Shown: positions 8,969-56,792 of the stretch, one piece after another
Numbering within the stretch: the stretch's first letter is position 1
How the letters are laid out: each line of letters starts with the position of its first letter
NCBI GenBank assembly: GCA_020160935.1
Contig: JAIUPL010000032.1
Location: 1-60,763 of the forward strand
Length of the DNA stretch: 60,763 nt
Source: Bacteroidota bacterium
GTDB lineage: Bacteria > Bacteroidota > Bacteroidia > Chitinophagales > Saprospiraceae
Direction: 5' to 3'
The notes under the pieces: model-generated
Seen by the model: the letters and a program-made list of their open reading frames with translations, nothing else
What the model was told of the DNA's origin: nothing
Database searches by the model: none
Translations under genes and position numbers: made by a program

Positions 8969-9123
8969 CGTAGAGTATTTTCCCGCAGATTTACGCAGAT
9001 TTCCCCGCAGATCACCGCAGATCGTAGAGTACACAAATTATTATTAATCAATAGTCTGTGTACTCTACGATCTGCGGTGATCTGCGGGGAAATCTGCGTA
9101 AATCTGCGGGAAACTACTCTACG
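8969..9123. repeat. Long hairpin, CGTAGAGTA/CGCAGAT family
   Basis: Two 67-base arms (8969-9035 and 9057-9123) are almost perfectly complementary around a 21-base AT-rich loop. Each arm is bounded by CGTAGAGTA words and filled with CGCAGAT units spaced about 12 bases apart. It lies between convergent genes ending at 8861 (+) and 9168 (-). A relative with the same outer words but different internal units lies at 27649-27811. It probably acts as a bidirectional terminator or 3'-end hairpin. Confidence 0.85.
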
Positions 9124-9167
9124 GGAAACTACTCTACTTGATCTACAGTGAATAACTTGACCAATTA

Positions 9168-12100
9168 CTACCTCTCATATTTGCCCCAGTTACCATACCG
9201 TGCTTCACCACCCACCTGCAAACACAGAAAATACAGCCCCGCAGGCCAGTTTCCGGTATCAACAGTATGTACCTGACCGGGTTCCAGATTTTCCAGTACG
9301 ACACTCAAAATACGCTGCCCTGCAGTATTCCATATATGCAAGGTGCCTGCAGGCGCAGGATCTCCGGCATAAATGATCTGAAATTGCTCCGAACCCGGAT
9401 TGGGTTGCACCTGGAAATCGAAGGGCTGCCCCTGCGTTCCATCGGCATCTCTTTCTTCTGTGAAATTACCCGTCAGCGTACTGGAAGAAGTGCAGGTTCT
9501 TACTTGACCCGAGCACAGCGATGTGGCAGTCGACACGCTCACCGGATTCGGGTAGGCATTGGCCCAGCAGTAATAAAGCCGCAGGGTTTGTGTACTCCCA
9601 TTAGCGGGCGATACCAGCCATTTAAAACTGCTGCTGCTGACGTATTGCAGATTGGCATTGAAGGTTTGAGTATTGAATGCGCCGCCGTTCAAACTCGAAC
9701 TGGATATGCTGAGCCCATTGACAGGCAGTCCGGAAATGGTAACCTGATCGCTCGCACCGATGTTGGTGACAATCACTTCGTAGTAAAAATCATTTCCGGT
9801 ATTGCACCCGTTGTTGTTGTTGGGCAAGCGCCGGAATGCAGTCATTTGAGGACAAGCGCTGGTAACGGAAATGACCACCGAAGGCGAGTACACGAAGTCG
9901 GAGCAGGTGCTTCTACGCGCGCACCGACGGAAATAGGTGCTTTGCGTAATGGCAGGTGGGTCGTAGGAAAGCGCATTGGCGCCCGGAATATCAACAAAAT
10001 CGGTGTTGAAGGCCGATGATTGCCACTGGTACAAAATGCTTCCGCCCGTACCGCCACTTGCAGGAAAATCGCTTGCGATAACACCCGGATCGAAAGGGCT
10101 GGCTCCACTGCCGGGTGTAGGCTCGATGATACTGCCCGCCTGGGTCACATTCGAACAGGCCGCACACTCAACGAGTGCGATAAATGCCGGATTGCGGCGG
10201 ATCGTGGTGATGATGGTGTTGCCGCATGCACTGCCCGATGCAGCCGTAAATGTTTGTCCCGGATTGGTATCTCCGGTGAAATTTTGCCCTGTCCCTGTCG
10301 AGATTTTATAATTCCCTGTCAGCACTGCCGACCAGTCAATCGATTTATTGAGGTTGATATTGGTGTTTACATTCCCATCGGTGGTGGCTTTCGGCGCCCA
10401 AAAAACAAGGTATGGCTCTGTACCATCCGGCCGGGCAATGATCCACACATTTGCCTCCGCATCTTCTACAAGCGCTTTGTAAAATACATGCTGCCCAAAC
10501 CTGCTTTTTAGATCCAGCATGGAATACCACGAAGGTTTGGGCGTAGCGCCATGCTGTGGCAGGGGAGAGGGCCAGGAACTGTTGGTCGGCTGCGTACCCT
10601 GACGCCAGAATCCGGAACTATAATAAAGTGTTGAATACGAGCCATCTGTGGGCCTCGACTGATCAAAAGCATTGTAAAAAAATACTTTTTCGAAATGAAA
10701 ACGGCTGTGCAGCAACAAACCTCGAATCAGGTATGCAGCCTGCGTTTGTTCGCCGACGCCTGAAACAGGATTGCTGTCGAAGCCATATTCCGACGACCAC
10801 AAACGGGCATCGTTCAGAATGCCGGTCGATGCGTTTTGGTTCGTTCGTAGCCAGGCAGCCAGGTTGCGAATTTGCCATGCCTCCGAAACGGGATTTTCCG
10901 GATACGTCCACGTCGTGGTGCCCGGCAAAAAACTGTACGGGTGACAATCGATGGCGTCAACATCTTTTAAAATATTGCAGTCGCTCACATCGAGGTAATC
11001 GCCGACAAAATCATGCCGTTGCAGGCTGCTTCCGCAGTTCGACACATTGCGCGCTGTGCCACTGCAGTTGTTGTCGCGAAAAGCCTGAAAAGCCCCGATG
11101 ACGAATTTCATTTTCCAGCCACCGGCCGATTTGGGGCCGTATTTCTGGATAAACGCGTTGCGAGCGCCTGTGAGCAGGTTGTGGTAATCCGTTTTTACGG
11201 GATAATCCCACAGTTCATTGCCTACCTGGAAATTGGAAACCAGAACCTGTGCAGGAGTGCCGTTGGCGGGCGCAAACTCGTCGATAAATTTTTTGGTGTA
11301 GTTTTCAAATGAACTGCGGATGCCTGCCGGGCCTGCTGCCGACCAGTCGCTTTCCAGATAAATTTTGTCTTTCCAGGTTTGCGGGCTGTATTGCAGTAGT
11401 TCAATGGCGCCCGTAATATTCGAAAAACCGTGTATGTTGTGGTACAACTGGTAGTAATTCCGGTTGTGTGCCGTATTGGAAGGGGTGCCTTCCGGTTGGG
11501 TGTCTTTTGGTTTGATATTTTGCGCATACAAACCAATAGAGCCGTCAAAATCTTCATCAATGGTGTGGAAATTCCGATACTGCGTGGTCAAAGCAGTAAT
11601 AGGATTGCTCGCGGCATTCAAAAACGAGCGAAATACCAGTCCGCCGTCGTTGACGCCAATCATATCGGCAAAGGTGTATGGGCTGGCCGTATTGAAGGCC
11701 GAATTGATTTGCAGGAGGTCTTCCGCGCTCAGGTTTTTGCCATAATTTTTGTTGGCGAGGCAGGATGCCGTGGCTGTATTTTCCGTTGATATCGAAACGC
11801 CGGTGAAATCGCTGCTGTTACTGCTGCAAAGCCGTTTTACCTGCACCTGATAGGCACCTGCACTCAAATTGTTGATGGAAAATGGTGCTGCTGCGACCGA
11901 CAAGCCACCCGGCGGTATGAACCAGTCGCCACTATCTCCGGCCCGATAACGAATACAATGCGGACCGCTGGAAGTCCAGGAAACCGACAGCCCTGTACCC
12001 GAAGCCGTGGCTGCAATGCCCGTGGCTGCACTGCAGGAACCATTGCTATTGCCAGTGAGATAGGTAATCGCATTACTCCAATTGGAAAAAGAACCATTCG

Positions 12101-12401
12101 AACATACAGAACGAATTTGTACGCTGTACTGGGTATTTTTTTTCAGGCCAGTAAGAGCAAAAGGCGCTGCGCCAGGCTGCTCCACGATGGTTTTGTCGTC
12201 TGGCGTTCCGGCTGACCAATACCTGAACTGGTATCCGTTCACACCCGATACTGCCGACCAGTTGAAGGTCAGCGACTGAGCGGTTTGCGTCGTATGAAGC
12301 CATAGGGACGATGGTGGGCCACACTGCGCCATGGCAGGTGGTGAAGAAATGAAACAGAAAAAGGCGAGTGCTGCATATAGCATGCATGGATGGAGGTTCA
12401 T
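9168..12401 (-). CDS. Secreted GH-A-clan-like glycoside hydrolase with Fn3 modules and T9SS tail
   Basis: From the ATG at 12401 the protein has 1077 residues. It has a signal peptide (MNLHPCMLYAALAFFCF, ending AMAQ) and two Fn3-like modules (about residues 20-115 and 120-210). A long domain follows that looks like a TIM-barrel hydrolase. FQVGNELWDYP would carry the acid/base Glu after Asn. LWSSEYGFDSN, about 140 residues later, would carry the nucleophile Glu, the spacing usual for clan GH-A. Next come an Ig-like segment and a DUF11-like segment (GNDFYYEVIVTNIGASDQVTI). A type A T9SS sorting domain ends the protein (VQPNPGSEQFQIIY … WPAGLYFLCLQVGGEARYG). The GH family and substrate are not resolved. 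The start at 12449 is longer but places 16 residues before the signal peptide. Confidence 0.75.
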   Translation of the reverse strand: MNLHPCMLYAALAFFCFISSPPAMAQCGPPSSLWLHTTQTAQSLTFNWSAVSGVNGYQFRYWSAGTPDDKTIVEQPGAAPFALTGLKKNTQYSVQIRSVCSNGSFSNWSNAITYLTGNSNGSCSAATGIAATASGTGLSVSWTSSGPHCIRYRAGDSGDWFIPPGGLSVAAAPFSINNLSAGAYQVQVKRLCSSNSSDFTGVSISTENTATASCLANKNYGKNLSAEDLLQINSAFNTASPYTFADMIGVNDGGLVFRSFLNAASNPITALTTQYRNFHTIDEDFDGSIGLYAQNIKPKDTQPEGTPSNTAHNRNYYQLYHNIHGFSNITGAIELLQYSPQTWKDKIYLESDWSAAGPAGIRSSFENYTKKFIDEFAPANGTPAQVLVSNFQVGNELWDYPVKTDYHNLLTGARNAFIQKYGPKSAGGWKMKFVIGAFQAFRDNNCSGTARNVSNCGSSLQRHDFVGDYLDVSDCNILKDVDAIDCHPYSFLPGTTTWTYPENPVSEAWQIRNLAAWLRTNQNASTGILNDARLWSSEYGFDSNPVSGVGEQTQAAYLIRGLLLHSRFHFEKVFFYNAFDQSRPTDGSYSTLYYSSGFWRQGTQPTNSSWPSPLPQHGATPKPSWYSMLDLKSRFGQHVFYKALVEDAEANVWIIARPDGTEPYLVFWAPKATTDGNVNTNINLNKSIDWSAVLTGNYKISTGTGQNFTGDTNPGQTFTAASGSACGNTIITTIRRNPAFIALVECAACSNVTQAGSIIEPTPGSGASPFDPGVIASDFPASGGTGGSILYQWQSSAFNTDFVDIPGANALSYDPPAITQSTYFRRCARRSTCSDFVYSPSVVISVTSACPQMTAFRRLPNNNNGCNTGNDFYYEVIVTNIGASDQVTISGLPVNGLSISSSSLNGGAFNTQTFNANLQYVSSSSFKWLVSPANGSTQTLRLYYCWANAYPNPVSVSTATSLCSGQVRTCTSSSTLTGNFTEERDADGTQGQPFDFQVQPNPGSEQFQIIYAGDPAPAGTLHIWNTAGQRILSVVLENLEPGQVHTVDTGNWPAGLYFLCLQVGGEARYGNWGKYER

Positions 12402-12908
12402 AATAAAGCAATTGATGACAAAAGGCAGGCTATCCTGCATCGGTGACACAAGAGAAAATGGACTGAAAATCAGTGGATTAGCAGATTAAAGACATGGGAG
12501 TCACTTCTCGCTGCAGCGGGGCTGCAACGCATGGTCAGGCAAGCAAAAGCGTTGTTGGATCAACATCCCGAAGGCAAAAAGAGTGAACCTTTTCGTCGCG
12601 TTCGAAACCTCGATGCAAAAACATCCTGGATGTGTGCTTATTTTTTGCTTGAACGCGGCGGGCATTTTTGCAGAAAACAAAAATGAAATCGGTCGAGCCG
12701 CTGGAAGGGAAAGAACCGGGCTTTTTAAAACGCCCGGAAAAAAGGATAAACTTATCAGATAATGTTATCCAGATGATTACATGGCAGCGAAAACCATGCC
12801 TAAATATAGGGGCCTCCGCATGTTACACACAAGCGAATTGGAGAGCGAGAATAATTTATTGTGTGTACTACATATTTGTGTAACAAGGAGTTGCAGGAAC
12901 CGGACGGA
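12402..12908. other. Intergenic region between xerC and the GH-A-like gene
   Basis: There is no convincing gene. An imperfect inverted repeat (GTTACACACAA … TTGTGTAAC) at about 12827-12890 follows the xerC stop and could be a terminator. A run of roughly 70 sense codons in the + direction near 12470-12690 has no good start or motif. The upstream promoter of the gene at 12401 should lie here but no strong TAnnTTTG box was identified. Confidence 0.35.
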
Positions 12909-13856: not shown

Positions 13857-13910
13857 TATTAAGCATTTCCGCTCGAAAGCGGTGCTTCACCTGCTGGTTT
13901 CGCGAACGAA

Positions 13911-14105: not shown

Positions 14106-14112
14106 GAAATTT

Positions 14113-14118
14113 CTCCTT
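14113..14118 (-). promoter_or_regulatory. Shine-Dalgarno site of rpsU
   Basis: On the minus strand AAGGAG lies 7 bases before the rpsU ATG (14105). Such sites are rare in this window, as expected for Bacteroidota, whose ribosomes usually sequester the anti-SD. Its presence at rpsU is consistent with translational feedback by bS21 levels. Confidence 0.7.
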
Positions 14119-17804: not shown

Positions 17805-18080
17805 GTGCGCTATACCCAGACCACACTCAAAAAAATAGAGGAACTCTTCGGGGAACTGGACTATTCGATTCGCTATGAGAAAGGCAATTTTCAAAGCGGA
17901 TACTGCCTCGTTGAAAATCGCAGAATCGCAGTAGTCAATCGTTTTTTTGACACGGAAGCCCGTATCAACTGCCTTATGGATATTTTGTCCAGCCTGGAAT
18001 TTGACCTGGAACACCTGAGCGACAAATCACGCGAACTCATTGAAAAGTGGAAGAAAGCGAATGAGGGGAATGATGAATGA
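17805..18080 (+). CDS. Conserved small protein of unknown function
   Basis: This 91-residue protein starts with GTG at 17805 (MRYTQTTLKKIEELFGELDY). It is mostly helical and charged, with a central GNFQSGYCLVENRRIAVVN beta segment and a C-terminal helix (LSDKSRELIEKWKKANEG). Such proteins are common in Bacteroidota next to nucleotide or phosphonate-type hydrolases, but I cannot name a function. The stop is four bases before the MBL gene, so the two are probably translated together. Confidence 0.65.
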   Translation: MRYTQTTLKKIEELFGELDYSIRYEKGNFQSGYCLVENRRIAVVNRFFDTEARINCLMDILSSLEFDLEHLSDKSRELIEKWKKANEGNDE

Positions 18081-18083
18081 TGA

Positions 18084-18848
18084 ATGATGAAAATAACGCT
18101 GCTCGGAACCGGTACCTCTCAAGGCGTTCCCGTCATCGGGTGCGGCTGTGAGGTATGTAAATCGACCGATGCGCGCGACAAACGCCTGCGTTCTTCAGCG
18201 CTTGTTTCTGCCGGGGAGGCGAATATTCTGATCGATGCCGGCCCCGATTTCCGCCAGCAAATGCTGCGCGCTGGTGTAACGCACCTCGATGCGATTGTGC
18301 TCACCCATGAACACAACGATCATGTGATCGGGCTCGACGACATTCGTCCCCTGAATTTCAGAAGCGGACAACCCATGCGGGTATTTGCATTGCCACGGGT
18401 GGCCTCGGAAGTGAAAAAGCGGTTCGAATATATTTTTGGCGAGCCGATTCCGGGTTTACCTCGGATAGAATTGATTGAAATCGAACCGGATCGTCCGCTG
18501 GAGATAAAAGGGCTGCACATCGTTCCAATTGGAGTTCAACATGGCCGATTGCCGATTCTTGGATACAGGTTTGATACATTGACCTATCTTACGGATGTAA
18601 AAACCCTGCTGCCATCGGAAATGCAGAAAATATCCGGCACTAAATATCTCATTACCAGCGCATTGCACCATGAATGGCACCCGACGCATATGAACCTGCA
18701 GGAGGCGCTTGCATTGGTGAAGCAGGTTGGGCCCGAACAGGCGTGGCTCACCCACATCAGCCATCACATGGGCCTGGCTGCCGTGGCTGGCCCGACGTTG
18801 CCGCCGGGTGTTTCGCTGGCATTCGACGGGCTGGAAATCGCTTTCTGA
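18084..18848 (+). CDS. MBL-fold metal-dependent hydrolase (PhnP-like)
   Basis: The 254-residue protein has the metallo-beta-lactamase fold. The di-metal motif HxHxDH is seen in LTHEHNDHVIGLDD near residue 75, and a further His lies in SALHHEWHPTHMN and THISHHMG. The N-terminal GTGTSQGVPVIGCGCEVCKS stretch has the Cys cluster of PhnP-type phosphodiesterases. It likely hydrolyses a cyclic phosphate or similar phosphodiester in the cytoplasm. It starts four bases after the 91-residue protein, in a short operon. A small direct repeat (GAATGATGAATGATGAA) spans the junction. Confidence 0.85.
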   Translation: MMKITLLGTGTSQGVPVIGCGCEVCKSTDARDKRLRSSALVSAGEANILIDAGPDFRQQMLRAGVTHLDAIVLTHEHNDHVIGLDDIRPLNFRSGQPMRVFALPRVASEVKKRFEYIFGEPIPGLPRIELIEIEPDRPLEIKGLHIVPIGVQHGRLPILGYRFDTLTYLTDVKTLLPSEMQKISGTKYLITSALHHEWHPTHMNLQEALALVKQVGPEQAWLTHISHHMGLAAVAGPTLPPGVSLAFDGLEIAF

Positions 18849-18887: not shown

Positions 18888-19961
18888 ATGCAAGGAATAT
18901 CCGTGCCACAAGAAAGAGAGACGTTTTTCTGGGCTGACCGGCTGCGGAATATCGCTACTGTGCTGGTCATTGCAATTCACATTGCAGCACCCATTGCACA
19001 CGCCTATCCCAATGTGGATACCTGGTGGTGGTGGGCTGGCAACTGGTGGAATTCACTCGGGCGCCCTGCCGTTCCGTTGTTTGTGATGCTGAGCGGATAC
19101 CTGTTGCTCAGCAAGGATTACCCCTTGCCGGTATTCCTGAAAAAACGGTTTGCCCGCATCATTATACCTGCCCTGTTCTGGATGGGCGTCTACCTGTTGT
19201 ACAGTTTTATTGCCAAAGGAACGCCGTCTACGGTCTGGGAAGTGGTAAAAAGTATTGTATCCGGGCCGGTGCATTACCACCTGTGGTTCATTTATCTCAT
19301 CATCGGTCTTTATCTGATATATCCGATTCTGCGCGCCTGGGTAAAAACGGCCACTGAACAGGAGTTGCTGTATTTTTTGATCCTTTGCGCTTTTTGTACC
19401 TGGGTGTACAAAATACTGTATGTGTTTGCAAATCTGTCGATTGGTATCTATTTCGAACTGTTTACCAATAATGCAGGCTATTTTGTGCTGGGTTTTTACC
19501 TGGGGAATAAACCCGCTGCCGATGAATCCAAACCCGGCCGACCCTGGGCATTTTCGCAACGCCAACTGGGGTATATCGGACTTGCGCTCATCATTGCAGG
19601 CACTGTGGCAACCGCGCTGCTTTCATACTGGTTCAGCCACAGCAAAGGCCAGAATTTCACTTTTTTCTACGACTACCTCACGCCCAATGTGTCGCTTTCG
19701 GCCATTGGCTGGTTTTTGTTTGTCAAATACACCTGCAATGCCCGTCCCCTGATTGATATTGAAAAAGATTTTGCAGCAGCCAGTTTCGGTATTTATCTTG
19801 CACACGTTTTGGTCATCGATTGGTGGGCCCAATGCGGCTACTGGCACAGCAAGGAACCACCATTCAAGGGAATTCCAATTCTAATCGGTTTGGTAACCAT
19901 CATGTCGTTTATGATGATTGCTTTTTTGAGGACGATGCCGGGAGGTAAGAAGATTACTTGA
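18888..19961 (+). CDS. Membrane acyltransferase (Acyltransferase_3/WecH-like)
   Basis: The 357-residue integral membrane protein has about ten predicted helices. Its N-terminal WADRLRNIATVLVIAIHIAAP has the conserved Arg and His of the acyltransferase 3 family, and RPAVPLFVMLSGYLLL is the second family motif. These enzymes move acetyl or other acyl groups onto surface polysaccharides. The acceptor is unknown. It is immediately followed by the long hairpin at 19963-20097, which probably ends its transcript. Confidence 0.85.
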   Translation: MQGISVPQERETFFWADRLRNIATVLVIAIHIAAPIAHAYPNVDTWWWWAGNWWNSLGRPAVPLFVMLSGYLLLSKDYPLPVFLKKRFARIIIPALFWMGVYLLYSFIAKGTPSTVWEVVKSIVSGPVHYHLWFIYLIIGLYLIYPILRAWVKTATEQELLYFLILCAFCTWVYKILYVFANLSIGIYFELFTNNAGYFVLGFYLGNKPAADESKPGRPWAFSQRQLGYIGLALIIAGTVATALLSYWFSHSKGQNFTFFYDYLTPNVSLSAIGWFLFVKYTCNARPLIDIEKDFAAASFGIYLAHVLVIDWWAQCGYWHSKEPPFKGIPILIGLVTIMSFMMIAFLRTMPGGKKIT

Positions 19962-19962
19962 G

Positions 19963-20097
19963 AGTCCTGAGTCGTAAGTCCTGAGTCCTGAGTCTGTAGT
20001 GTTGACCTACTTACCTTCGGCTTTCTCATATAGGGAAGCCCCAAAAAAGGTTGGTCAACTCTACGGACTCAGGACTCAGGACTTACGACTCTGGACT
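19963..20097. repeat. Long hairpin, AGTCCTGAGTC family
   Basis: The arms are 45 bases (19963-20007 and 20053-20097) with about three mismatches. The arm reads as heptamer-like units (AGTCCTG, AGTCGTA, AGTCCTG, AGTCCTG, AGTC), followed by GTAGNGTTGACC next to the loop. It begins two bases after the acyltransferase stop. Related sequence lies at 53250-53280 and 56660-56792. It probably acts as a terminator or 3'-end hairpin. Confidence 0.85.
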
Positions 20098-20129
20098 TCC
20101 ACCTAAAAGTACGGTCGATATGAAAACAT

Positions 20130-22106: not shown

Positions 22107-22115
22107 GGCTTACTT

Positions 22116-24334: not shown

Positions 24335-24949
24335 ATGAAAAAAGTACTGTTTATCCTCGCCACTGTTTTCACCGGATATATCGCACAGGCACAGGTTCAA
24401 TCGTTTGGCCCTACCGCCGGTTTCAACTATGCCTGGCTTTCCGACCTGAGCAATGCTTCCGGCCGCCCTTCCTTCAACGCAGGTTTTACCTACAATTACA
24501 GCATTCTGGAAAGTGCCGGTATCGGCATTGAAGCCCGTTATTCCGAAGAAGGTGTAAAACAGGATATCGGCAATGCCACGCTGACCACCAAACTGAACTA
24601 CATCCGTGTTCCGCTTAAATTCCAGTATTTCTTTGGAAAACTCGGACAGGATTTTCGCCCGAAAGTATTTGTGGGCCCTTCTTTCGGTTTTCTGGTAGGA
24701 GGTAAATCCGAAATCCGTTCCGGCGAAACCACCACCACCATCAATTCAAAAGACGTATATGAAGGCTTCGACGCAGGGCTCCATGCCGGCGCGGGATTCA
24801 ACTACCGGCTGGCCGAGCGCACCTGGCTCAATTTCGACGTAGCCTACACGCATGGACTGATCGACGTGGCCGGCTCCAAAAGCGGCTCCGATGCACAAAA
24901 CCGCCTGGTCAACGTGAACCTGGGTGTCGCATTCGGTTTTGGCGAATAA
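24335..24949 (+). CDS. PorT-like outer-membrane beta-barrel protein
   Basis: The 204-residue protein has a clean signal peptide (MKKVLFILATVFTGYIAQAQ) and the pattern of small Bacteroidota barrels: GPTAGFNYAWLSD, GIGIEARYSEEGVKQD, LNYIRVPLKFQYFF, VFVGPSFGFLVGGKSE and a final VNVNLGVAFGFGE. The YIRVPLKFQY motif is typical of this outer membrane beta-barrel family. Function is unknown. A convergent hairpin (25026-25143) follows. Confidence 0.8.
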   Translation: MKKVLFILATVFTGYIAQAQVQSFGPTAGFNYAWLSDLSNASGRPSFNAGFTYNYSILESAGIGIEARYSEEGVKQDIGNATLTTKLNYIRVPLKFQYFFGKLGQDFRPKVFVGPSFGFLVGGKSEIRSGETTTTINSKDVYEGFDAGLHAGAGFNYRLAERTWLNFDVAYTHGLIDVAGSKSGSDAQNRLVNVNLGVAFGFGE

Positions 24950-25025
24950 AACAAGCAACTCAACATATTTTTAATGCCGTCGCATGCATGGCATATGGCT
25001 TATCCCAAATTTTTCCTACTTAAAT

Positions 25026-25143
25026 GACGCCAAACGCCCCTTGTCTTCCTGTCGGGAACCGTCCACTCTACGACGCGTAACAGCATATTTTCCCCTCGTA
25101 GAGAGGACGGTTCCCGACAGGAAGACAAGGGGCGTTTGGCGTC
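25026..25143. repeat. Long hairpin between convergent genes
   Basis: The arms of about 49 bases (25026-25074 and 25095-25143) are near-perfect complements. The outer part begins GACGCCAAACGCCCCTTGTC and the inner part ends with CTCTACGA words like those bounding the hairpins at 8969 and 27649. It lies between genes ending at 24949 (+) and 25238 (-). Confidence 0.85.
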
Positions 25144-25237
25144 TTTAAGGTGCGAAAAATTGTAGAGAATTGGAAATCAACCTGTAAAGATCAAAACGGA
25201 TGACTCATTTTTTAGAGGTAAGAAGTGAGAGGTGAGA

Positions 25238-27571
25238 TTAGGGACGGGAGAGGTCTTTGTAACTGATGAGTTGGATGCCATTTTTTTCGATGAACTGGCG
25301 TATGTCGGGGTCGGTAAACAAATCCGTTACGCCTTGTCGGTCCGAAGCCACATTTTCATATCCGATATGATGAATGGCCTGCAATTCGGCGCCATCCATG
25401 CCAGGATGATCGAGGAACATATACGTCTGACCGGGCTCCAGTTTTTTCAGTGATTGCAGAAAACTTTGCTTTTTTTCGGCAAATGTCTGGTGCGGGCCAT
25501 CGTAACCAACCCATTTGAAAGTTCCTTCGCCGCCTTCGAGGGGAAGTTTGTATTCAGCGGCGAGTTTTTGAGCCAGGGCTTTCACTTCGGGCGACAGGTT
25601 TGCGCAGCCCATGTGCGCGGAAAGGTGGCTCACCTGCGGCAGGGTGCGAAGCGCTGTTTCAATTTGAGCGCGGAATTCCTTTTCAATATCCTCTAATTTC
25701 CACGGGTTTTCCGAAATGGACTGCCCGGGGTAGTTTTTATTTGGAAAAATCATGGGAAAGAAATAGCCATCGGCATTTCTCAGGCTGGCGGCAGGAGTAA
25801 GTGGGCGCCACTTTACATTGTCCCATTCGCTGGTAAGCGCCAGGTGTACGCCTGCATCGATGCCGGGGTTGGCTTGCAGCATGCGCACCGCTTCCGGGAA
25901 CCAGGGAGAAGGAACCAGCACTTCAATGGAAGTCTGAATGCCTTCTTTGGAGGCTTTGAGCAGGGCCTCATTACCGGAATGCGAAAATCCCATATCGTCG
26001 CCCCGAATGATCAGGCGGGGTGGGGCAGGCGAGGCTGCCGCCATCGTTCCTTTGAGGGTTGTTACCGTTTTTTTGTCATAACTGCTTTGAATAGCCACAT
26101 CCAGGCTGTTCTGATCAAACTTGCAGGTAAAAACCTCTGTGTGTGGACTTTCGTAATAGCGCAGGGTCAATTCCAGTGTTTTATCATCGGACCAGCGCCA
26201 GGCGCCCGCAATTTTGGAAGGCGGGAGTCCGGCGAAATGCCCTTTGGCGAGTTGAACGAGGTTGGGGCCAAGTTTGGCGGTTTCGCCGAATGCCCATTTG
26301 CCCGAACCGAATGGCAGGGTGTAGGTTTTGTCGGCCATTTGAATGCTCGCCTCGCACACATCGTTCTTCCAGTTGAACGACATGGAGCGGATAAATTGCT
26401 CGTTGGGCGAAACCGCGTAGGTTTTACCGGCAATACTTTTTTGAATGGCCGAAGCCTTGCTTTTTGCAGGTACAGGCAGTGCCAGCGCGGCCAGTTTTTG
26501 TTTCAATGCTGCTGTACTTTTGGCATCGGCAGGGAGTGCAGTGGGCTGTATGGCCGGGAACAGGTATTTCCACACCAGGTTAAATTCATCCTGCATATTT
26601 GGTGATTCCGATGTGATGGCAATCACCGCATCCTGATCGGGCAGGACGATAATAAACTGCCCGAAAGCGCCGTCGCCCCGGAATGAATTATTCCTGCTCC
26701 GCCACATCTGGTAACAATACCCCTGTTCCCAGTCGCTGGAGTCGCGTTTCGATTGCGGCATATCGGGGTGCTGGATGATTTTGGCGGTGCTGGCTTCTTG
26801 AACCCAGGCAGCAGGTAGTACCTGCTTGCCATTCCAGACTCCTTTTTGCAGAAACAACTGCCCGAAACGGGCCATATCTTCTGTTTTGATGCGCAGGCCC
26901 CAGCCGCCCGTGTTGATGTTGTCGGGCGTCGTTTCCCAATCCATGCCCGTGATACCCAGCGGTGCGAATAAACGGGGCGTCAGGTAGTCGATGATTTTTT
27001 CGCCAGTCACTTTTTGTACAATGGCAGACAACATGTACGTTGCCAACGAGTTGTACAGGAATTTGCTGCCGGGCTGGTTCAAAATAGGAGTGGCCAGAAA
27101 TGCTTTGGTCCAGTTGTCGGCACTGCGAATGACGGGGGTCGGATCGGGCTCCTGGCCGGCGGTCATGCTTAGCAGGTCGCGCACGCGCAGGGCTGCAAGG
27201 TTGGCGCTGACATTGTCGGGCAATTGATCTGGAAAAAACGACACTACCTTATCTTCTACATTCAATTTGCCTTCATGCACTGCCAGGCCGACCGCCGATG
27301 CCGTAAAACTCTTGCTGCAGGAGTACATCGTATGCTTCAGATCGGCGCGATAGGGCGCCCACCATCCCTCAGCAATCACTTTACCGTGGCGCAGAAACAT
27401 GATACTGTGCATTTCGTGCGGACTTTTTTCTGCCGCTTCGAGGAATTGCAGGATGTTTTTGGAAGAAACACCCTCCGCTTCGGGCGTGCTGCGGGGGAGC
27501 GTGGTTTGGGTGATTGTGCTGCCGAGGAACAGCAAAAATGCAGGGAGGAGAAGGGCGAATTTGCGAATCAT
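25238..27571 (-). CDS. Secreted fusion of a class C beta-lactamase-like serine hydrolase and a ChbG/YdjC-type deacetylase
   Basis: The 777-residue protein begins with a signal peptide (MIRKFALLLPAFLLFLGSTI). The first domain (about 25-350) is a penicillin-binding-protein-like serine hydrolase. SCSK (Ser84, Lys87) gives the SxxK motif and YNS near 175 is the second motif. A DUF3471-like beta domain follows (about 360-510). The last 260 residues form a YdjC/ChbG-type carbohydrate deacetylase with RGDDMGFSHSGNEAL (metal Asp), DAGVHLALTSEW and HLSAHMG. ChbG removes acetyl groups from chitooligosaccharides, so the fusion may act on amino sugars of peptidoglycan or chitin. One continuous frame links the domains, and I saw no frameshift. 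The fusion itself is unusual. Confidence 0.85.
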   Translation of the reverse strand: MIRKFALLLPAFLLFLGSTITQTTLPRSTPEAEGVSSKNILQFLEAAEKSPHEMHSIMFLRHGKVIAEGWWAPYRADLKHTMYSCSKSFTASAVGLAVHEGKLNVEDKVVSFFPDQLPDNVSANLAALRVRDLLSMTAGQEPDPTPVIRSADNWTKAFLATPILNQPGSKFLYNSLATYMLSAIVQKVTGEKIIDYLTPRLFAPLGITGMDWETTPDNINTGGWGLRIKTEDMARFGQLFLQKGVWNGKQVLPAAWVQEASTAKIIQHPDMPQSKRDSSDWEQGYCYQMWRSRNNSFRGDGAFGQFIIVLPDQDAVIAITSESPNMQDEFNLVWKYLFPAIQPTALPADAKSTAALKQKLAALALPVPAKSKASAIQKSIAGKTYAVSPNEQFIRSMSFNWKNDVCEASIQMADKTYTLPFGSGKWAFGETAKLGPNLVQLAKGHFAGLPPSKIAGAWRWSDDKTLELTLRYYESPHTEVFTCKFDQNSLDVAIQSSYDKKTVTTLKGTMAAASPAPPRLIIRGDDMGFSHSGNEALLKASKEGIQTSIEVLVPSPWFPEAVRMLQANPGIDAGVHLALTSEWDNVKWRPLTPAASLRNADGYFFPMIFPNKNYPGQSISENPWKLEDIEKEFRAQIETALRTLPQVSHLSAHMGCANLSPEVKALAQKLAAEYKLPLEGGEGTFKWVGYDGPHQTFAEKKQSFLQSLKKLEPGQTYMFLDHPGMDGAELQAIHHIGYENVASDRQGVTDLFTDPDIRQFIEKNGIQLISYKDLSRP

Positions 27572-27648: not shown

Positions 27649-27811
27649 CGTAGAGTAGTTTCCCGCAGAACTCGCAGATTTACCCGCAGAACTCGCAGAA
27701 CGTAGAGTACACTTAGAGTACACATTTTGATCGCTTTGAAAAAATAGGCGTACTCTACGTTCTGCGAGTTCTGCGGGTAAATCTGCGAGTTCTGCGGGAA
27801 ACTACTCTACG
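27649..27811. repeat. Long hairpin, CGTAGAGTA/CGCAGAACT family
   Basis: The 62-base arms (27649-27710 and 27750-27811) are perfect complements. They share the outer words CGTAGAGTAGTTTCCCGCAG and CGTAGAGTAC with the hairpin at 8969-9123, but the inner units are CGCAGAACT rather than CGCAGAT. It lies between the starts and ends of two minus-strand genes (stop of 27832 and ATG of 27571). So it follows a stop codon here too. Confidence 0.88.
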
Positions 27812-27831: not shown

Positions 27832-28635
27832 TCATTCCCCAGCCACCGCATCAATCACCACCCACGGAATACTCAAACGCAGCCCTCCGAACCGCCGGGC
27901 CTGCTCGTTGAGGCGCGTCTCCAGGGCATCAAAAATTTCTTCTTCCCGGCCTTTCGGCAGGATTTTAATCCAGGAATCCATAAATGCCATGCGTATCAAA
28001 AAATGGTGCAGCATGGCCGTGCCGTCGGCGTAGCGATAGTTGAATTGGTCGTGTTCGAGGCGGCGGATCATGAAGCCATTAGCACGCAGCAAATCAAGGA
28101 TGGCATCCAACGGCGGGCGTTTTTCCTGAATATGCCGATGCATGGCTGCCACCGATTCATACAGATGCAATGCGGATAAAATGCTTTCCAGTTCGCTGTA
28201 CATCTCGAACATCGATTTATCGAGGTTCATGGTCATCACAAACTGCCCGCCGGGTTTCAGCACGCGCGCACACTCCGACAATACCTGCGAAATATCCTGC
28301 ACATTATTGATGCCGTTGTTGCTGACAATCAGGTCGATACTGCTGTCATCTAGCGGAATTTTTTCAGCAGGCGCTTCGATAATGCGCACATTGTCAATGC
28401 GATATGCGTCGAGTTTTACTTGTGTGCGCTCTACGCCTGGTTTCCACGGGTCGATGCCATACACAGTGGAAGTACTGCCCAAGCGCATGGCGAGTTCGGT
28501 GAGCGGGAAGCCCATTCCGAAGCCAATATCGAGTGCAGTAATACCTCGCTTGTATTCGACGCAGTCCAGCAGTTTCAGGCCGAATGGCGCCGACCAGAGC
28601 GGCGTCTCGTCGAGCACATGCGCCAGTTGGTCCAC
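27832..28635 (-). pseudogene. Class I SAM-dependent methyltransferase, N-terminus cut by IS1
   Basis: About 267 codons encode a methyltransferase with SAM motif I (GITALDIGFGMGFPLTELAM), motif II acid (YGIDPWKPG) and motif IV-like DLIVSNNGINNV, followed by the RVLKPGGQFVM strand. The substrate is unknown. The frame is open upstream of the apparent GTG start (28635) as KFDVDQL and runs straight into the end of the IS1-family element at 28647. The native start and promoter have therefore been removed or displaced. Only a few residues may be missing, since the fold looks complete, so it could still be functional if read from an IS-borne promoter. I list it as broken because no native start remains. 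Confidence 0.7.
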
Positions 28636-33690: not shown

Positions 33691-33708
33691 TTTGGGAGGT
33701 TTGCATTG

Positions 33709-33922
33709 GTGAGGCTTGCGCCTCCCGTTTTATTTGGGATTGGGCGGATGAAGCGGATGAAGCGGATTTTTTGGCCTGCCGGCCATTTTTTGATTACCCT
33801 GTTATTTTACAAAATCTTCTAAAAGAAGAAAAATCCCAAAATTTGGCCGACAGGCCAAAAAATCCGCCTTATCCGCTTCATCCGCCCAATCCCAAAAAAA
33901 CGGGAGGCGGAAGCCTCTCCCA
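33709..33922. repeat. Long hairpin with GCGGATGAA units
   Basis: The arms of about 77 bases (from 33709 and from about 33844) are near-complementary around a loop of about 58 bases. The left arm contains GGGATTGGGCGGATGAAGCG followed by GATGAAGCGGATTTTTTGG, a 9-base direct repeat. A GGAAGCCTCTCCCATCTTGCA unit, shortened here by one base when repeated, occurs twice at the right end (33909-33957). It separates the convergent genes era (+) and the giant protein (-). The hairpin at 46098 has a related inner part (GGGATTTTGCGGATTTTGCG). Confidence 0.85.
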
Positions 33923-33959
33923 TCTTGCAGGCGGAAGCCTCTCCCATCTTGCAGGCACC

Positions 33960-45773: not shown

Positions 45774-46097
45774 ATGAAGAAGTTAGCACTGAGTATCACT
45801 ACTGCCGTTCTTATGTTGTTTGCCGCTCCGGGCGTTCAGGCCGCTACAGGCGTCCCTCCGACCACTACCTCCTCTTCTTCGGCTCCGGCGCCGGAAGCAG
45901 CACGTGCCGAAGCCCTCAAAACACGTTTGCATGAAATTAAAAACACCGACAAATCCAACATGAGCGCTGCCGAGAAAAAACAACTGCGCAAGGAAAAAAA
46001 GGCTGTCAAAAAGGAATTGCGTGCCGTAAGCGGTGGCGTATACATTTCTGCCGGCGCCCTGATCGTCATTCTGCTCGTGCTGCTGATTTTGACTTAA
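45774..46097 (+). CDS. Small exported membrane-anchored protein
   Basis: The 107-residue product has a signal peptide (MKKLALSITTAVLMLFAAPG … VQAA), a Thr/Ser/Pro-rich spacer, and a charged helical segment rich in Lys, Arg and Glu (about 50-80). A C-terminal hydrophobic helix (VYISAGALIVILLVLLILT) ends the protein. It is probably anchored in the inner membrane with a short periplasmic helix. I recognise no function. Similar small proteins are frequent in Bacteroidota. Confidence 0.7.
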   Translation: MKKLALSITTAVLMLFAAPGVQAATGVPPTTTSSSSAPAPEAARAEALKTRLHEIKNTDKSNMSAAEKKQLRKEKKAVKKELRAVSGGVYISAGALIVILLVLLILT

Positions 46098-46223
46098 GAG
46101 GATTTTTGTTCGGCTTCGCCTCACGGGGTGGGGCTTGGGATTTTGCGGATTTTGCGGATAAAATGGATTTATTTATTTATCCGCAAAATCCCAAATTCCC
46201 CCGGTGAGGCGAAGCCGAACCTC
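46098..46223. repeat. Long hairpin with TTTTGCGGA units
   Basis: It begins one base after the stop of the gene at 45774-46097. The outer arms match (GTTCGGCTTCGCCTCAC / GTGAGGCGAAGCCGAAC) and the inner arms match (TTGGGATTTTGCGGAT / ATCCGCAAAATCCCAA), with a 9-base direct repeat TTTTGCGGA. The inner part resembles that at 33709-33922. Probable terminator. Confidence 0.83.
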
Positions 46224-51592: not shown

Positions 51593-51951
51593 ATTTTTGG
51601 ATAAGTCAGGTTCTTGAATAGGTGGGTGGGAAGCGCAAAAGACAATTTTCATAGTCTAAACTTGATAATTAAAAAAGGCAACTATACCCTCAAAAAAAAC
51701 ATCCAACCGCCTGCATCACAAAACGCGTTATTTGCAATAGTCAGGTTTCAAAAACCGGTCTGCAGGTGTATGCAGCGGTTCGTTCTGATAGAATCAGAAA
51801 GCCCTTGTTGAAATGAATACTGGTATACACCCTGTTTTTGCTGAAACACCATAGTCAGCGCCTCCTCCGTGTTGCAAAACAGTTACTTTTATATGCACAC
51901 TTTTCTAATTTTTTCGGAGGTCGTTTTTTCAAAAAAAATTACCAACACGAG

Positions 51952-52036
51952 TTATCCACAATGTTGATAAAATAGGTATTTTTTCTTAACATTGATAATC
52001 AGTTATTTATGAAAGTTATCAACATTGTGTGGATAA
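51952..52036. promoter_or_regulatory. Symmetric array of four DnaA-box-like sites
   Basis: TTATCCACA at 51952-51960 is a perfect DnaA box, followed by TGTTGATAA (51962-51970, reverse of TTATCAACA). On the other side TTATCAACA (52016-52024) is followed by TGTGGATAA (52028-52036, reverse of TTATCCACA). The two pairs form a large inverted repeat with a 45-base AT-rich centre. It lies about 230 bases upstream of the nrdB ATG and directly upstream of a possible promoter at 52066. DnaA is known to control nrdAB in E. coli, so a cell-cycle control site is plausible. A secondary origin is the alternative. Confidence 0.65.
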
Positions 52037-52261
52037 TTATACTGTAAAAACATCGAAACAGCCTTTACTTTCGCTACCCTGAAAACAAACCTAATACCCC
52101 TTCCCGCCTCCGTAAAAGTTCCGACATGATAAACACAGGATTGACACCCGGCCCCAAAGCCGACAGGAAAGTGTCGTCCTTAAAATGTTGTGATCCAGGC
52201 ACTTAATCGAAGCAACTTCTTTCTTCAATCCAATAATACTACAGATAAACGAATCAACATC

Positions 52262-53248
52262 ATGGAACAGAAAACCGCCGGCTACGAGCCTATTCTTGCT
52301 GAAAACCCGGACCGTTTTGTTATCCTCCCGATCAACTACGAAGAGATCTGGAAAATGTATAAAACCGAGGTGGCTTCCTTCTGGACAGCAGAAGAGGTAG
52401 ACCTGAACCCCGACCTGGTGGACTGGGAGCACAAACTCAATGACGACGAGCGCCATTTTATCAAACACGTGCTGGCATTTTTCGCGGCATCGGATGGCAT
52501 CGTCAATGAAAACCTGGTGCTCAACTTCATGCGCGAGGTGCAAATTCCCGAAGCCCGCTGTTTCTATGGCTTTCAGGTGGCCATCGAGAATATCCACGCC
52601 GAGATGTACTCGCTCCTCATCGACACCTATATTAAAGACCCGAAGGAAAAACACTTCCTGTTTCACGCGCTGCAAAACCTGCCCTGCGTGACCAAAAAAG
52701 GCGAATGGGCCCTTCGCTGGATCGAGGAAGCCCCCTCGTTTGCACACCGCCTCATCGCTTTCGCCGCCGTGGAAGGCATCTTTTTCTCCGGCTCGTTCTG
52801 CTCCATTTACTGGCTGAAAAAACGCGGCCTCATGCCCGGCCTCACGTTCAGCAACGAACTCATCAGCCGCGACGAAGGCCTGCACTGCGACTTCGCCTGC
52901 CTGCTGTATTCCATGATGCAAAACAAACTCGATCCGAAAGAAATCGAAGCCATCATCACCGAGGCCGTAGAATTTGAAAAGGAATTTATCACTGACGCCT
53001 TGCCCGTGTCGCTCATCGGCATGAACGCCGATATGATGAGCCAGTATATTGAATTCGTAGCCGACCGCCTGCTCGTCGCACTCGGAAACCCGAAAGTGTA
53101 CAACACCTCCAACCCGTTCCCATGGATGGATATGATCTCGATTCAGGGTAAAACCAATTTCTTCGAAAAACGCGTGGGCGACTACCAAAAAGCCGGCGTC
53201 ATGGGCAAACGGGAAGACCAGGTGTTCAGCATGGAAGCGGATTTCTAA
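52262..53248 (+). CDS. nrdB: Class Ia ribonucleotide reductase small subunit (R2, eukaryote-like)
   Basis: The ATG at 52262 ([20 protein letters not shown]) gives 328 residues. Metal-site motifs of R2 are all present. FWTAEEVDL and [20 protein letters not shown] provide the first Asp/Glu/His ligands. [20 protein letters not shown] holds the radical Tyr and more ligands. [15 protein letters not shown] provides the last Glu/His. The wording is close to eukaryotic R2, including [20 protein letters not shown] and the C-terminal FSMEADF, the tail that docks on R1. With NrdA it makes dNTPs. It is separated from nrdA by a small secreted-protein gene and two repeat-rich gaps. Confidence 0.95.
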
Positions 53249-53249
53249 A

Positions 53250-53378
53250 GTCCTGAGTCCTGAGTCCTAAGTCCTGAGTCGCCCGTAGAGCCCTGAAGGG
53301 GCGTACACAATAGCCCAGGGCAACGCCCTGGGTGTTCGATAATCAGGGCAACGCACTGGGTGTTCGACAACCAGGGTG
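53250..53378. repeat. Repeat cluster: AGTCCTG heptamers plus GCCCAGGGC hairpins
   Basis: It starts two bases after the nrdB stop with an AGTCCTGAGTCCTGAGTCCT-type heptamer run, the same family as 19963. An AGCCCTGAAGGGGCGT hairpin and a GCCCAGGGCAACGCCCTGGG palindrome follow. Two further imperfect copies (CAGGGCAACGCACTGGGTGTT and CCAGGGTGTTC) come after it. The last part recurs at 54096-54147. Probable 3'-end hairpins of nrdB. Confidence 0.78.
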
Positions 53379-53439
53379 TTCAAATGCCAAAATTCATCCA
53401 AAATTCAATACCCATTTACCCAACAAGCACCATTATACC

Positions 53440-54051
53440 ATGAACCGACCCATCCATCTGATCTTCCTGCTGCTGCTGCTCGCCACCTCCTCTGCCGGCG
53501 CGCAATCCAGACAGGACAGCCTCGACCTGATCCGCGATTTGGACATCTACCGACGCATATCGCTTCGGATTGACTATGATTCGCTGATGTTCTTCATGCC
53601 GCCGGAAACATTCAACATCGTACCCAAAGAAGACCTCAAAGAACAACTGCGCAGCGCATTTGAAAACGAGATGCTGGCAATCCGTTTCGAATCATTCGAA
53701 TACAAACCGGTTTCTCGTGTCGGCAAAACCGGCGAACACCTGTTCGCCACCGTCCCATACGATGCCGCCATGACCATGATACTGGCCGACACCAGCGAGG
53801 CCGCTACCGTCGGTATGATCCTCATGGCCATGAAAGTGCAATTCGGCTCGGACAATGTGACGCAAAACCCCGACAAAAGCATGCTCATCAAAACACCTGA
53901 AAAGCAAATGATCGCCATCAAAAGTCCGAACCATAATTCCTGGAAATTTATTGAAGACAAAAGGGTAGGTGGCGCCCCTGGCGACGAAGAAGTCCAGCAA
54001 TTTATAGATATGGTGCTGCCGAAAGAAGTGCTGGAGGCCACGAAAAAGTAG
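53440..54051 (+). CDS. Secreted protein of unknown function within the nrd cluster
   Basis: The ATG at 53440 gives 203 residues with a signal peptide (MNRPIHLIFLLLLLATSSAGA). The mature part is mixed alpha/beta (ISLRIDYDSLMFFMPPETFN, then LEHLF-like turns and VGMILMAMKVQFGSDN). No family was recognised. It lies between nrdB and nrdA in the same direction, but with repeat-rich gaps on both sides. A common transcript is uncertain and its link to nucleotide reduction is probably only positional. Confidence 0.65.
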   Translation: MNRPIHLIFLLLLLATSSAGAQSRQDSLDLIRDLDIYRRISLRIDYDSLMFFMPPETFNIVPKEDLKEQLRSAFENEMLAIRFESFEYKPVSRVGKTGEHLFATVPYDAAMTMILADTSEAATVGMILMAMKVQFGSDNVTQNPDKSMLIKTPEKQMIAIKSPNHNSWKFIEDKRVGGAPGDEEVQQFIDMVLPKEVLEATKK

Positions 54052-54053
54052 GA

Positions 54054-54147
54054 CTGTTAACAGTCAACAGTCGTCAGTCAACAGTCATCAGTCGAAAAGC
54101 CCTGAAAGGGCGTATTCAATAGCCCAGGGCAACGCCCTGGGTGTTCG
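54054..54147. repeat. AACAGTC-type heptamers plus GCCCAGGGC palindrome
   Basis: It starts two bases after the stop of the 53440 gene. AACAGTCAACAGTCGTCAGTC-like units (period about 7) are followed by an AGCCCTGAAAGGGCGT hairpin and GCCCAGGGCAACGCCCTGGG with TGTTCG. The second half is nearly identical to 53287-53340. Confidence 0.75.
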
Positions 54148-54213
54148 TAAAAAAAATTCACCCCCACATTCCACCCGGTCACAAAACAAACTATTGAACA
54201 TTATCCTACTCAT

Positions 54214-56658
54214 ATGATGCAAGTAATCAAACGTTCCGGCCAGCGCGAAGAAGTGTCCTTCGACAAAATCACGGCCCGACTCAGAAAAATGTCCTACGGC
54301 CTCGATACAGGCTTTGTCAACATCATCGAAGTATCGAAAAAGGTCATCATGGGCCTGTACGACGGTGTTACCACTGTCGAACTCGACAACCTGGCAGCGG
54401 AAACAGCCGCCACCATGGCCACTATTCACCCCGACTATGCGCTGTTGGCGGCCCGCATCGCCGTGAGCAACCTGCACAAGGAAACCGACAAGTCGTTTTC
54501 CAAAACCATGGACGCGCTGTACCACTACGTCGACCCGAAAACCGGCGAACGCGCCGGCCTCATCAGCGACGACACGCACAAAATCATTCAGAAACACCGC
54601 ACCAAACTCGATTCAGCGATCATCTACGACCGCGATTTTGAGTTTGACTACTTCGGTTTCAAAACCCTCGAACGCTCCTACCTCATGCGGATGAACGGCA
54701 GCGTGGTGGAACGCCCGCAACACCTGTTTATGCGCGTAGCCGTCGGCATCCACGGGGAAGACATCGACGCGGCGGTAGAGACCTACAACCTCATGTCGGA
54801 GCGCTGGTTTATCCACGCCACCCCTACCCTCTTCAATGCGGGTTCGCCGAAACCACAAATGTCGTCCTGCTTCCTGCTCAGCATGACGGAGGACAGCATT
54901 GCCGGTATTTTTGAAACCCTGTCGCGCTGCGCCCTCATCAGCCAGAGCGCCGGCGGTATCGGCCTCAGCATCCACAACATCCGCGCTACGGGCTCCTACA
55001 TCAAAGGCACGGGCGGCACCTCTAACGGCATCATTCCGATGCTGCGCGTATTCAACGACGCAGCCCGCTACGTGGATCAGGGCGGCGGCAAACGCAAAGG
55101 CGCTTTCGCCGTGTACCTCGAACCCTGGCACGCCGACGTATTCGAATTCCTCGAACTGAAAAAGAACCACGGCAAAGAGGAAATGCGCGCCCGCGACCTG
55201 TTCTACGCCATGTGGATCAGCGATTTGTTCATGGAACGCGTAAAAGCCGACGCCGACTGGTCGCTGTTCGACCCGAACGAAGCGCCTGGCCTGTTCGACG
55301 TATATGGCGCCAAATTCGAAGCCTTGTACCACCAGTACGAGCAGGAAGGCCGTGCCCGCAAATCGGTGAAAGCCCGCGACCTGTGGAACGCCATTCTGGA
55401 AAGCCAGACGGAATCCGGTACGCCGTACATCCTGTACAAAGACGCCGCCAACGCCAAGAGCAACCAGCAGAACCTGGGTACTATCCGCTCGTCTAACCTC
55501 TGCACCGAAATCATCGAGTACACCTCGCCCGACGAGGTAGCCGTGTGCAACCTGGCCTCGCTGGCGCTGCCTAAATTTGTGATCAACGGCAAATTCGACT
55601 TCGATAAACTGGTGGAAATCACCCGCGTCGTGACCCGCAACCTCAACAAGGTGATCGACGTCAACTACTACCCCATTCCGCAGGCCCACACCTCCAACAT
55701 GCGCCACCGCCCCATCGGCCTCGGCGTACAAGGGCTGGCCGATGCATTCATCCTGCTGGGTATGCCCTTCGACAGCGATGAAGCCAAACAACTCAACCGC
55801 GATATTTTCGAGGCCATTTACTACGCAGCCGTATCGGAAAGTGCCGCTCTGGCCGAAAAACTCGGCCCTTACCAGAGTTTTGCCGGCTCGCCCATGAGCA
55901 AGGGCATGTTCCAGTTCGACCTCTGGGGCGTGCAGCCGTCCGATCGCTGGGACTGGAACAGCCTGCGCGAACGGGTGAAAAAAGTGGGTCTGCGCAACTC
56001 CCTGCTCGTGGCGCCTATGCCCACGGCCAGCACCAGCCAGATCCTGGGCAACAACGAATGTTTCGAGCCGTACACCTCCAACCTGTACACGCGCCGCACA
56101 CTCGCCGGCGAGCACATCGTGGTGAACAAACACCTCATGCGCGACCTGGTGCGCCTGGGCCTCTGGAACGAGGAAATGCGCGAAGCCATCATGGCCGCCA
56201 ACGGCTCCATCCAGGGCATCGAAGACATCCCGCAGGAGGTGCGTAACATCTACAAAACGGCCTACGAAATCAGCCAGAAAGTGATCATCGACATGAGTGC
56301 CGACCGTGGCGCCTTCATCTGCCAGAGCCAGTCGCTCAATGTGTTTATGGAAGCGCCTACGTTCGCCAAACTCTCGTCCATGCACTTCTACGCCTGGCAG
56401 AAAGGCCTCAAAACGGGCATGTACTACCTGCGCTCCAAAGCGGCGACGGACCCGATCAAGTTTACGCTGAGCCAGAAACACCAGCAGAAGTTTGTGAACC
56501 AGGGGGCCGAAAAAGTGGTGGAAACACCCGCCGCCCCTGTGATGCAAAGCGCTGCCGTGACGCAAAACGCGCCGCAAATGTCGGCACTGGATGTAGAGGC
56601 TGTGGCTGGTAAAGTGTGCAGTATTGATAACCCGGATTGCGAGGCATGCTCCGCATAG
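54214..56658 (+). CDS. nrdA: Class Ia ribonucleotide reductase large subunit (R1, eukaryote-like)
   Basis: The 814-residue catalytic subunit reduces NDPs to dNDPs. The N-terminal ATP-cone is present ([20 protein letters not shown]), so dATP overall control is likely. Active-site motifs are SSCFLLSM (first redox Cys), NLCTEIIEY (Asn, thiyl-radical Cys and Glu) and [11 protein letters not shown]. The C-terminal tail carries the redox pair in [10 protein letters not shown]. The sequence follows the eukaryotic R1 pattern over nearly its full length (for example [20 protein letters not shown] and [19 protein letters not shown]). This NrdAe-type is known from Bacteroidota. A spacer of low complexity (about 755-795) precedes the tail. 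A repeat hairpin follows the stop after one base. Confidence 0.96.
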
Positions 56659-56659
56659 C

Positions 56660-56792
56660 AGTCCTAAGTCGTGAGTCCTAAGTCCTGAGTCCGTAGCGTA
56701 CACGTACAAAAGCCTCGTCATGTGGTGTACGCTACGAAGACTCAGGACTTACGACTCAGGACTCAGGACTCAGGACTCAGGACTCAGGACTT
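56660..56792. repeat. Long hairpin, AGTCCTGAGTC family, behind nrdA
   Basis: The left arm begins AGTCCTAAGTCGTGAGTCCT and ends in GTAGCGTACAC at 56703. The right arm starts GTGTACGCTACGAAGACTCA at 56725. The right arm is extended by extra ACTCAGG heptamers (up to 56792), so the two sides differ in unit number. This points to slippage or expansion of the heptamer. It is the third member after 19963 and 53250. Confidence 0.83.

Follow-up and report, generated by a model that had tools for sequence, protein, structure and literature searches.

The window, i.e., the whole stretch of 60,763 nucleotides analyzed here, corresponds to contig 6 of a genome assembly of 5.84 Mb and 51 contigs (GC 49%). 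By ribonucleotide reductase, its nearest named genomes are mostly Saprospiraceae or Bacteroidetes MAGs. Two genes of the window carry a Por_Secre_tail, the type IX secretion tail, and on both grounds the genome was treated as that of a Saprospiraceae-type Bacteroidota. Positions 25238–27571 form a single open frame with matches to beta-lactamase-like and YdjC-like domains, and positions 57160–58800 hold a TIR-domain gene followed by a gene with an effector-associated domain (EAD11), a pair that is possibly defense-related. A search of the window against Rfam at the gathering score returned no match, and a tRNA/tmRNA search of it found none.

A preliminary description of this DNA had listed seven long hairpins at gene ends, most of them with arms built from short direct repeats. 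A repeat search and a script recovered all seven and added two more (Table 1). The nine hairpins comprise 31 to 77 pairs, compared with chance maxima of 21, 18, and 14 pairs in three dinucleotide shuffles. None is located inside a called gene; four lie in convergent gaps, four in tandem gaps, and one at the edge. Tandem Repeats Finder (TRF) periods in the window are 7, 9–11, 14–15, and 22, and, with both strands counted, the shared word CGTAGAGTA was found at 8 places in the window and at 52 in the genome sample described below. The relative G324, used for comparison, is the genome of locus L065, a Saprospiraceae MAG that is largely colinear with the window; its median DNA identity to the window genome is 86% in the coding flanks of gaps, and the amino-acid identity is 91% (52 genes).

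Table 1. Hairpins and single-arm arrays of the window, with the state of the same site in a relative
Feature	Position	Family or unit	Setting	Same site in a relative
Hairpin, 37-nt arms	5424–5514		Convergent gap; left arm starts within the end of the upstream gene; not among the seven first listed	No hairpin (G324)
Hairpin, 83-nt arms, 93%	8960–9132	CGTAGAGTA/CGCAGAT	Convergent gap	Hairpin of another family
Single-arm array	18068–18091	GAATGAT	Gene junction	152-pair hairpin; gap at 18080 is 3 nt here, 411 nt in G324
Hairpin, 72-nt arms, 79% over full length; core 48 nt, 92%	19954–20106	AGTCCTG	Tandem gap; directly 3' of stop codon at 19961	Same family, AGTCCTG (G324)
Hairpin, 73-nt arms, 88%	25008–25161	No short units by eye	Convergent gap	Gap at 24949 is 288 nt here, 0 nt in G324
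Hairpin, 67-nt arms, 97%	27649–27811	CGTAGAGTA/CGCAGAACT	Just 3' of the stop of minus-strand gene 27832–28635	Absent in G324; gap at 27571 is 260 nt here, 44 nt there
Hairpin, inner arms 33729–33900 (64 nt, 91%)	33705–33923	GCGGATGAA	Convergent gap	Single arm remains (G324)
Hairpin, 43-nt arms, 36 pairs	46108–46220	GGATTTTGC/GTTCGGCTTCGCC	11 nt 3' of stop codon at 46097	
Single-arm array	53249–53280	AGTCCTG	Starts one base after the nrdB stop codon; then short REP-like palindromes	
Single-arm array	54059–54093	AACAGTC	3' of stop codon at 54051	
Hairpin, 44-nt arm, 41 pairs	56660–56793	AGTCCTG	2 nt after the nrdA stop at 56658	
Hairpin, 31-nt arms, 100%	60663–60763		Contig end; not among the seven first listed	

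Placement and unit families in the genome

The genome sample consisted of 40 stretches outside the window (766,159 bases, with contig starts over-represented), in which genes were called with a home-made gene caller. Hairpins of at least 25 pairs were detected by pairing, so that decayed ones are under-counted. The sample contained 143 hairpins in 766 kb, against 0 in one shuffle per stretch, and extrapolation gives about a thousand long hairpins for the genome. The family proposed in the preliminary description depended on such hairpins being common beyond the window, as they are, and on their being tied to gene ends. Hairpins occupy 47 of 87 convergent, 75 of 358 tandem, and 10 of 91 divergent gaps; among gaps of at least 110 nt, the values are 47 of 59, 74 of 203, and 10 of 82, respectively. 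No sampled hairpin lies inside a called gene, and 9 are at stretch edges. From the stop codon to the hairpin the median distance is 4 nt, with 93 of 132 at 20 nt or less (sample and window), while the corresponding median from start codons is 62.5 nt. The tie to gene ends seen in the sample was repeated in stretches of five related genomes (22 of 41 convergent, 35 of 196 tandem, and 4 of 41 divergent gaps), where the hairpins keep less closely to the stop codon (median distance 8.5, upper quartile 106). The probability that the hairpins are assembly or amplification artefacts (inverted chimeras) is negligible: some do lie near contig ends, such as that at 60663–60763, but hairpins are bound to gene ends and absent from the interior of called genes, and independently assembled relatives have them at the same gene ends.

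The distribution among relatives is uneven. Few hairpins were found in other genomes of the genus when at least 30 pairs were required: 2 in G007 and 1 in G009 (100 kb each), and none in G002 (35 kb) or G011 (20 kb). Among 80 Bacteroidota loci examined at the same cut-off, L064–L074 hold 8 hairpins in 137 kb, and the others 8 in 1.05 Mb.

Grouping the 152 hairpins of sample and window by the similarity of their arms gave 19 families and 11 singletons. Units of about 7 nt among the families listed are AGTTATG, AGTCCTG, GTGTTTT, CAAGGGG, GATTTAA, and GTGAGAG; further families listed carry GGTTGATGAG, GCGGATTTT, or CGTAGAGTA with CGCAGAACT, and others are without short units. A strict period test was passed by 69 of 146 arms (sample and window) versus 4 of 146 shuffled ones, mostly with a period of 7, 8, or 14. 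About half of the elements therefore have arms built from arrays of 6–16-nt units; the preliminary description, which saw such units in most arms, is overstated in this respect, and the hairpin at 25008–25161 and others do not conform to it. Likewise, the shared outer words are present, but they mark several families rather than a single one. Units resemble each other less (0.66) than the two arms do (0.92), which holds in 64 of 69 arms. Conversely, of 262 intergenic arrays, 150 have an inverted partner within 300 nt, compared with 3 of 262 at randomly chosen places and none of 18 coding arrays; 112 have no such partner at this threshold, and the window, too, has three unpaired arrays.

Base composition is also asymmetric. 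When read inward, the arms are rich in G and poor in C (5402 versus 2355; more G than C in 120 of 152), so that each strand enters the hairpin via a G/T-rich arm. Stop codons within the units close all three frames within 30 nt in 80 of 292 arms read inward versus 34 read outward; the mean number of frames closed by arm stops is 1.66 versus 1.44 in shuffles, a modest effect.

Arm-to-arm changes and turnover between species

In ten families of at least five copies, departures from the consensus were found at 241 positions in both arms versus 188 in one arm, where about 0.6 both-arm cases are expected if the arms vary independently; of 6913 cells, 1770 without consensus and 500 misaligned ones were dropped, and copies from one ancestor count more than once. 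Since the largest family is a chained mixture of several units, the comparison was repeated without it, giving 136 both-arm versus 150 one-arm positions (0.53 expected, 90 hairpins). Between species, 10 orthologous pairs provided 483 positions, counted only in columns inside both stems: 410 are unchanged, 20 changed in both arms, 42 changed in one arm, and 11 are broken in both, with about 0.3 both-arm changes expected under independence by the same formula. Without the pair L024 5318, which was aligned in five blocks, the counts are 14 both-arm versus 33 one-arm. Within a hairpin, found as it is by pairing, arm mismatch is 7.5%, as opposed to a between-species difference of 40.6% at fourfold sites. 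The preliminary description had suggested an element that grows by copying units while keeping its arms complementary. Both-arm changes far above independence bear out that complementarity is kept during sequence change, and symmetric growth has occurred at least once, in L024 5318, where a segment of about 50 nt is doubled in both arms of the relative's hairpin.

The arms of one hairpin were also set against other copies. Gaps were rarer between a hairpin's own two arms (23 of 146 cases) than between nearest copies (39 of 125). The best match of an arm is its own partner in 88 of 131 cases, with 11 ties, and another copy of the family in 32, which speaks against the claim of arm-to-arm copying in its strongest form. 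These arm changes behave like those of inverted repeats homogenized at the DNA level, as judged from copies within the genome and from related species. Arm matching shows no dependence on loop length (rho −0.04, p = 0.65), and inner stems are slightly worse matched than outer ones (225 versus 170 mismatches of 2280); neither observation favors local fold-back. Insertion of a new symmetric copy at the same position could likewise pass for both-arm change.

The sites themselves turn over between species. Sixty of the 76 gaps considered, from the window and three stretches of the sample, have a mapped counterpart in G324: 10 have a hairpin of the same family in both genomes, 1 of partly the same family (L011 9086, with 19 nt in common above chance), and 3 of different families, while 8 have a hairpin only here, 1 only in G324, and 37 in neither. 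L024 10803 was left out of the same-family pairs, its alignment being at chance level. Other places in G324, about 30, carry the CGTAGAGTA/CGCAGAACT family. The CGTAGAGTA/CGCAGA hairpin family has also spread strongly in this genome, to at least about 30 places over tens of contigs.

The nrdA end was compared by eye in the window and its 12 nearest loci, the best 12 of 80; 40 loci were scanned for hairpins. A hairpin of at least 26 pairs lies within a few bases of the stop codon in 7 of the 13. Its unit is AGTCCTG in the window and L065, AGTGATG/AGTTATG in L064, ACGGTAC in L066, GAATGAT in L071, AGTTATG in L072, and AGTGAAG in L074. No hairpin of this size is present at the nrdA end of L067–L070, L073, and L075; the array of L070 is a direct repeat and stands outside the hairpin count. 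The AGTCCTG pattern was found in 2 of 42 genomes of the genus, including the window's own, with 186 and 215 hits; the second, G331, has the same contig positions as G324 and was treated as the same genome. With the own genome included in each case, 12 of 42 genomes of the genus have the GTTGATGAGG pattern, and 10 of 295 genomes of the class have the AGTTATG pattern. Collectively, the set is real: abundant, lineage-specific gene-end palindromes with concerted arms, which occupy the majority of long convergent gaps, belong to many dispersed families, and turn over between species.

Transcription ends and mobility

Pairing that is kept in the transcript would give more G–U than A–C pairs among sense-strand mismatches. 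Tandem hairpins have 83 GU versus 88 AC mismatches, and the five relatives 53 versus 45 (p = 0.48; G324 alone, 23 versus 14). Ordinary terminators of the same genome gave 16 versus 3 (p = 0.004), so the test is able to show a G–U preference. Transversions account for 117 of 241 both-arm and 83 of 188 one-arm changes in the ten families, for 71 of 136 and 75 of 150 without the largest family, and for 15 of 20 both-arm changes between species in the orthologous pairs. Together, mismatch types and transversions fit DNA copying from arm to arm, although the copying could instead occur when a copy is made and inserted.

A T-tract, defined as at least six T in eight positions within 12 nt of the hairpin, follows 3 of 80 tandem hairpins and is present at 4 of 104 convergent flanks. 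The tandem value means that these are not classical intrinsic terminators, in agreement with the preliminary description, which had set them apart from ordinary terminators. U-tracts are often absent at terminators according to one study (PMC8355165). At convergent ends, a canonical terminator was found in 7 of 100 cases with a long hairpin versus 11 of 44 without (p = 0.005), the background in shuffles being 4 of 206; tandem ends show no difference (4 of 74 with a hairpin versus 15 of 202 without). A role as two-way transcription stops is plausible from these patterns. An explanation by function alone, in which RNA hairpins acting as bidirectional terminators or 3' end protectors are kept paired by selection and compensatory mutations, would accommodate the gene-end placement, the fewer canonical terminators at hairpin-bearing convergent ends, and the relatives with different units at the same site. 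It nevertheless appears improbable: G–U does not exceed A–C as it does in ordinary terminators, both-arm transversions are not rare, T-tracts are nearly missing, and selection blind to single mismatches would not keep 60 pairs at 93%.

Another explanation is that the hairpins are mobile palindromes of a non-autonomous, MITE- or REPIN-like kind that depend on an enzyme acting in trans. In this view, the arms agree because each copy is recent and was transposed as a whole, and sites are occupied or empty depending on insertion at gene ends that tolerate it. Indeed, dispersed copies are near-identical, occupied and empty sites exist between species, families abundant in two genomes are absent from 40 others of the genus, and the genome has two matches to Y1 transposase. 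Yet inspection by eye of nine occupied/empty sites recognized no target-site duplication, many unrelated unit families would have to be active simultaneously, and the origin of both-arm differences between copies would still need to be accounted for. The linked transposase that the preliminary description had proposed to look for did not emerge either, as the palindromes within 1.5 kb of the two Y1 matches are of other sequences; the Y1 transposase (RAYT) was consequently rejected as a linked driver, although it may act in trans. Mobility of this kind is, on balance, somewhat unlikely.

The Y1 neighborhoods have palindromes of their own. The Y1 gene at C42 has short REP-like palindromes (GCCCTGAAAGGGC, GGGCAACGCCC) at a distance of about 130 nt (L144 9580–9680). 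The same palindromes stand beside single-arm arrays of the window (53290–53330 and about 54099–54111) and are rare, with 6 and 8 hits in the 766-kb sample. The second Y1 match (C29:2332–2577; L010 1898–3045) has GTTGGCGAGGACGCCAAC palindromes on both sides. Plasmids gave no match to one AGTCCTG hairpin.

Two further causes were considered. Loss of the palindrome nuclease SbcD was rejected as a simple cause, since G008 and G012 pass the TIGR00619 cut-off yet contain 5 hairpins in 35 kb and 8 in 56 kb, respectively, in stretches mostly chosen around Y1 genes. This model has no match in G000, at least a weak match in 15 of 20 genomes, and a match above the cut-off in 4 of 20; the hairpin-poor G007 and G009 are below it. 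Fold-back inversions without Mre11 are reportedly the topic of one study. As for an origin of the arms by inverted copying of the host's coding ends, pairing extends at least 5 nt into the gene at 15 of 77 junctions versus 0.08 expected, but in the longest cases the gene tails mostly look like an array or element themselves, which makes the direction of copying ambiguous.

The explanation that we favor, with moderate confidence, is that these are palindromic repeat elements of gene ends, in which DNA-level copying passes sequence between the arms and which plausibly replace terminators. One arm would act as the DNA template from which its partner is made. This could happen by quasipalindrome template switching, in which a nascent strand folds back at the palindrome, or during copying of the element to another site, where a single arm would give rise to a whole new palindrome. 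Units that one arm gained by slippage would in this way reach its partner; the palindrome would grow on both sides alike, and mismatches would disappear. Gene ends would tolerate such elements and probably use them as two-way transcription stops. A more far-reaching version is possible but held only tentatively: a genome-scale, self-templating gene-end system in which fold-back copying renews and enlarges the arms, the palindrome outlasts its sequence as lineages exchange one unit word for another, and such elements partly took over from intrinsic terminators at convergent genes of the genus.

Comparison with known systems

A search of titles and abstract openings, with subscription literature mostly outside it, found no published account of such gene-end hairpins. 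Short tandemly repeated repetitive sequences of cyanobacteria are, like many of the arrays here, intergenic heptanucleotide arrays. The TAACTGA repeats of Beggiatoaceae and some Bacteroidetes (PMC4679880) are likewise intergenic heptamer arrays with a patchy distribution; however, those repeats are direct and mostly upstream of start codons, with one inverted case among 170 sets. REP/REPIN sequences with RAYT (PMC3733652) are high-copy intergenic palindromes near coding ends that sometimes supply stop codons, but they measure 20–40 bp and carry a GTAG or CGTC tag, whereas the present arms are 30–140 nt long and often arrays, and no flanking transposase was seen. The motif GTAG[AC]GTRYAC does occur in 24 of 152 hairpins; their arms are long, and other families lack the tag. 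Membership in REP/REPIN is therefore not supported, as tag and short palindrome do not coincide and no copies flank the two Y1 transposase matches within 1.5 kb.

The origin and upkeep of long paired stems is an old question, for which template switching is one proposed answer. In the accessible parts of the relevant reports (PMC8604942, PMC7202029, PMC8794818), template switching homogenizes inverted-repeat arms, which become alike as they do here, and one event can create perfect stems; those reports deal mainly with short stems or single events, whereas here long stems stand at a large share of gene ends, and such a process would be read from sequence patterns. Arms altering together agree with template switching, while better matching with shorter spacers was not seen. 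With about a thousand hairpins (extrapolated) and relatives at several distances, both-arm change, unit growth, and loss become countable. If the hairpins also end transcription, they would form a terminator class upheld by a mutational process and not by selection on each base pair.

Long arms with paired substitutions, for which repeat conversion was proposed, are also known from the perfect inverted repeats of Nematomorpha mitochondria (PMC6649704). Those repeats lie inside mitochondrial coding genes, and short-unit arrays are unmentioned in the accessible part of that report, in contrast to the arrays at gene ends found here. The P6b stem-loop of the Nostoc trnL intron (PMC4476775) has a stem of 7-nt repeats with two alternative motif classes at one site, where class is replaced by class and repeats are gained on both sides of the stem, as in the present elements. 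The Nostoc case concerns one site in a self-splicing intron, whereas here many gene ends and many unit families are involved.
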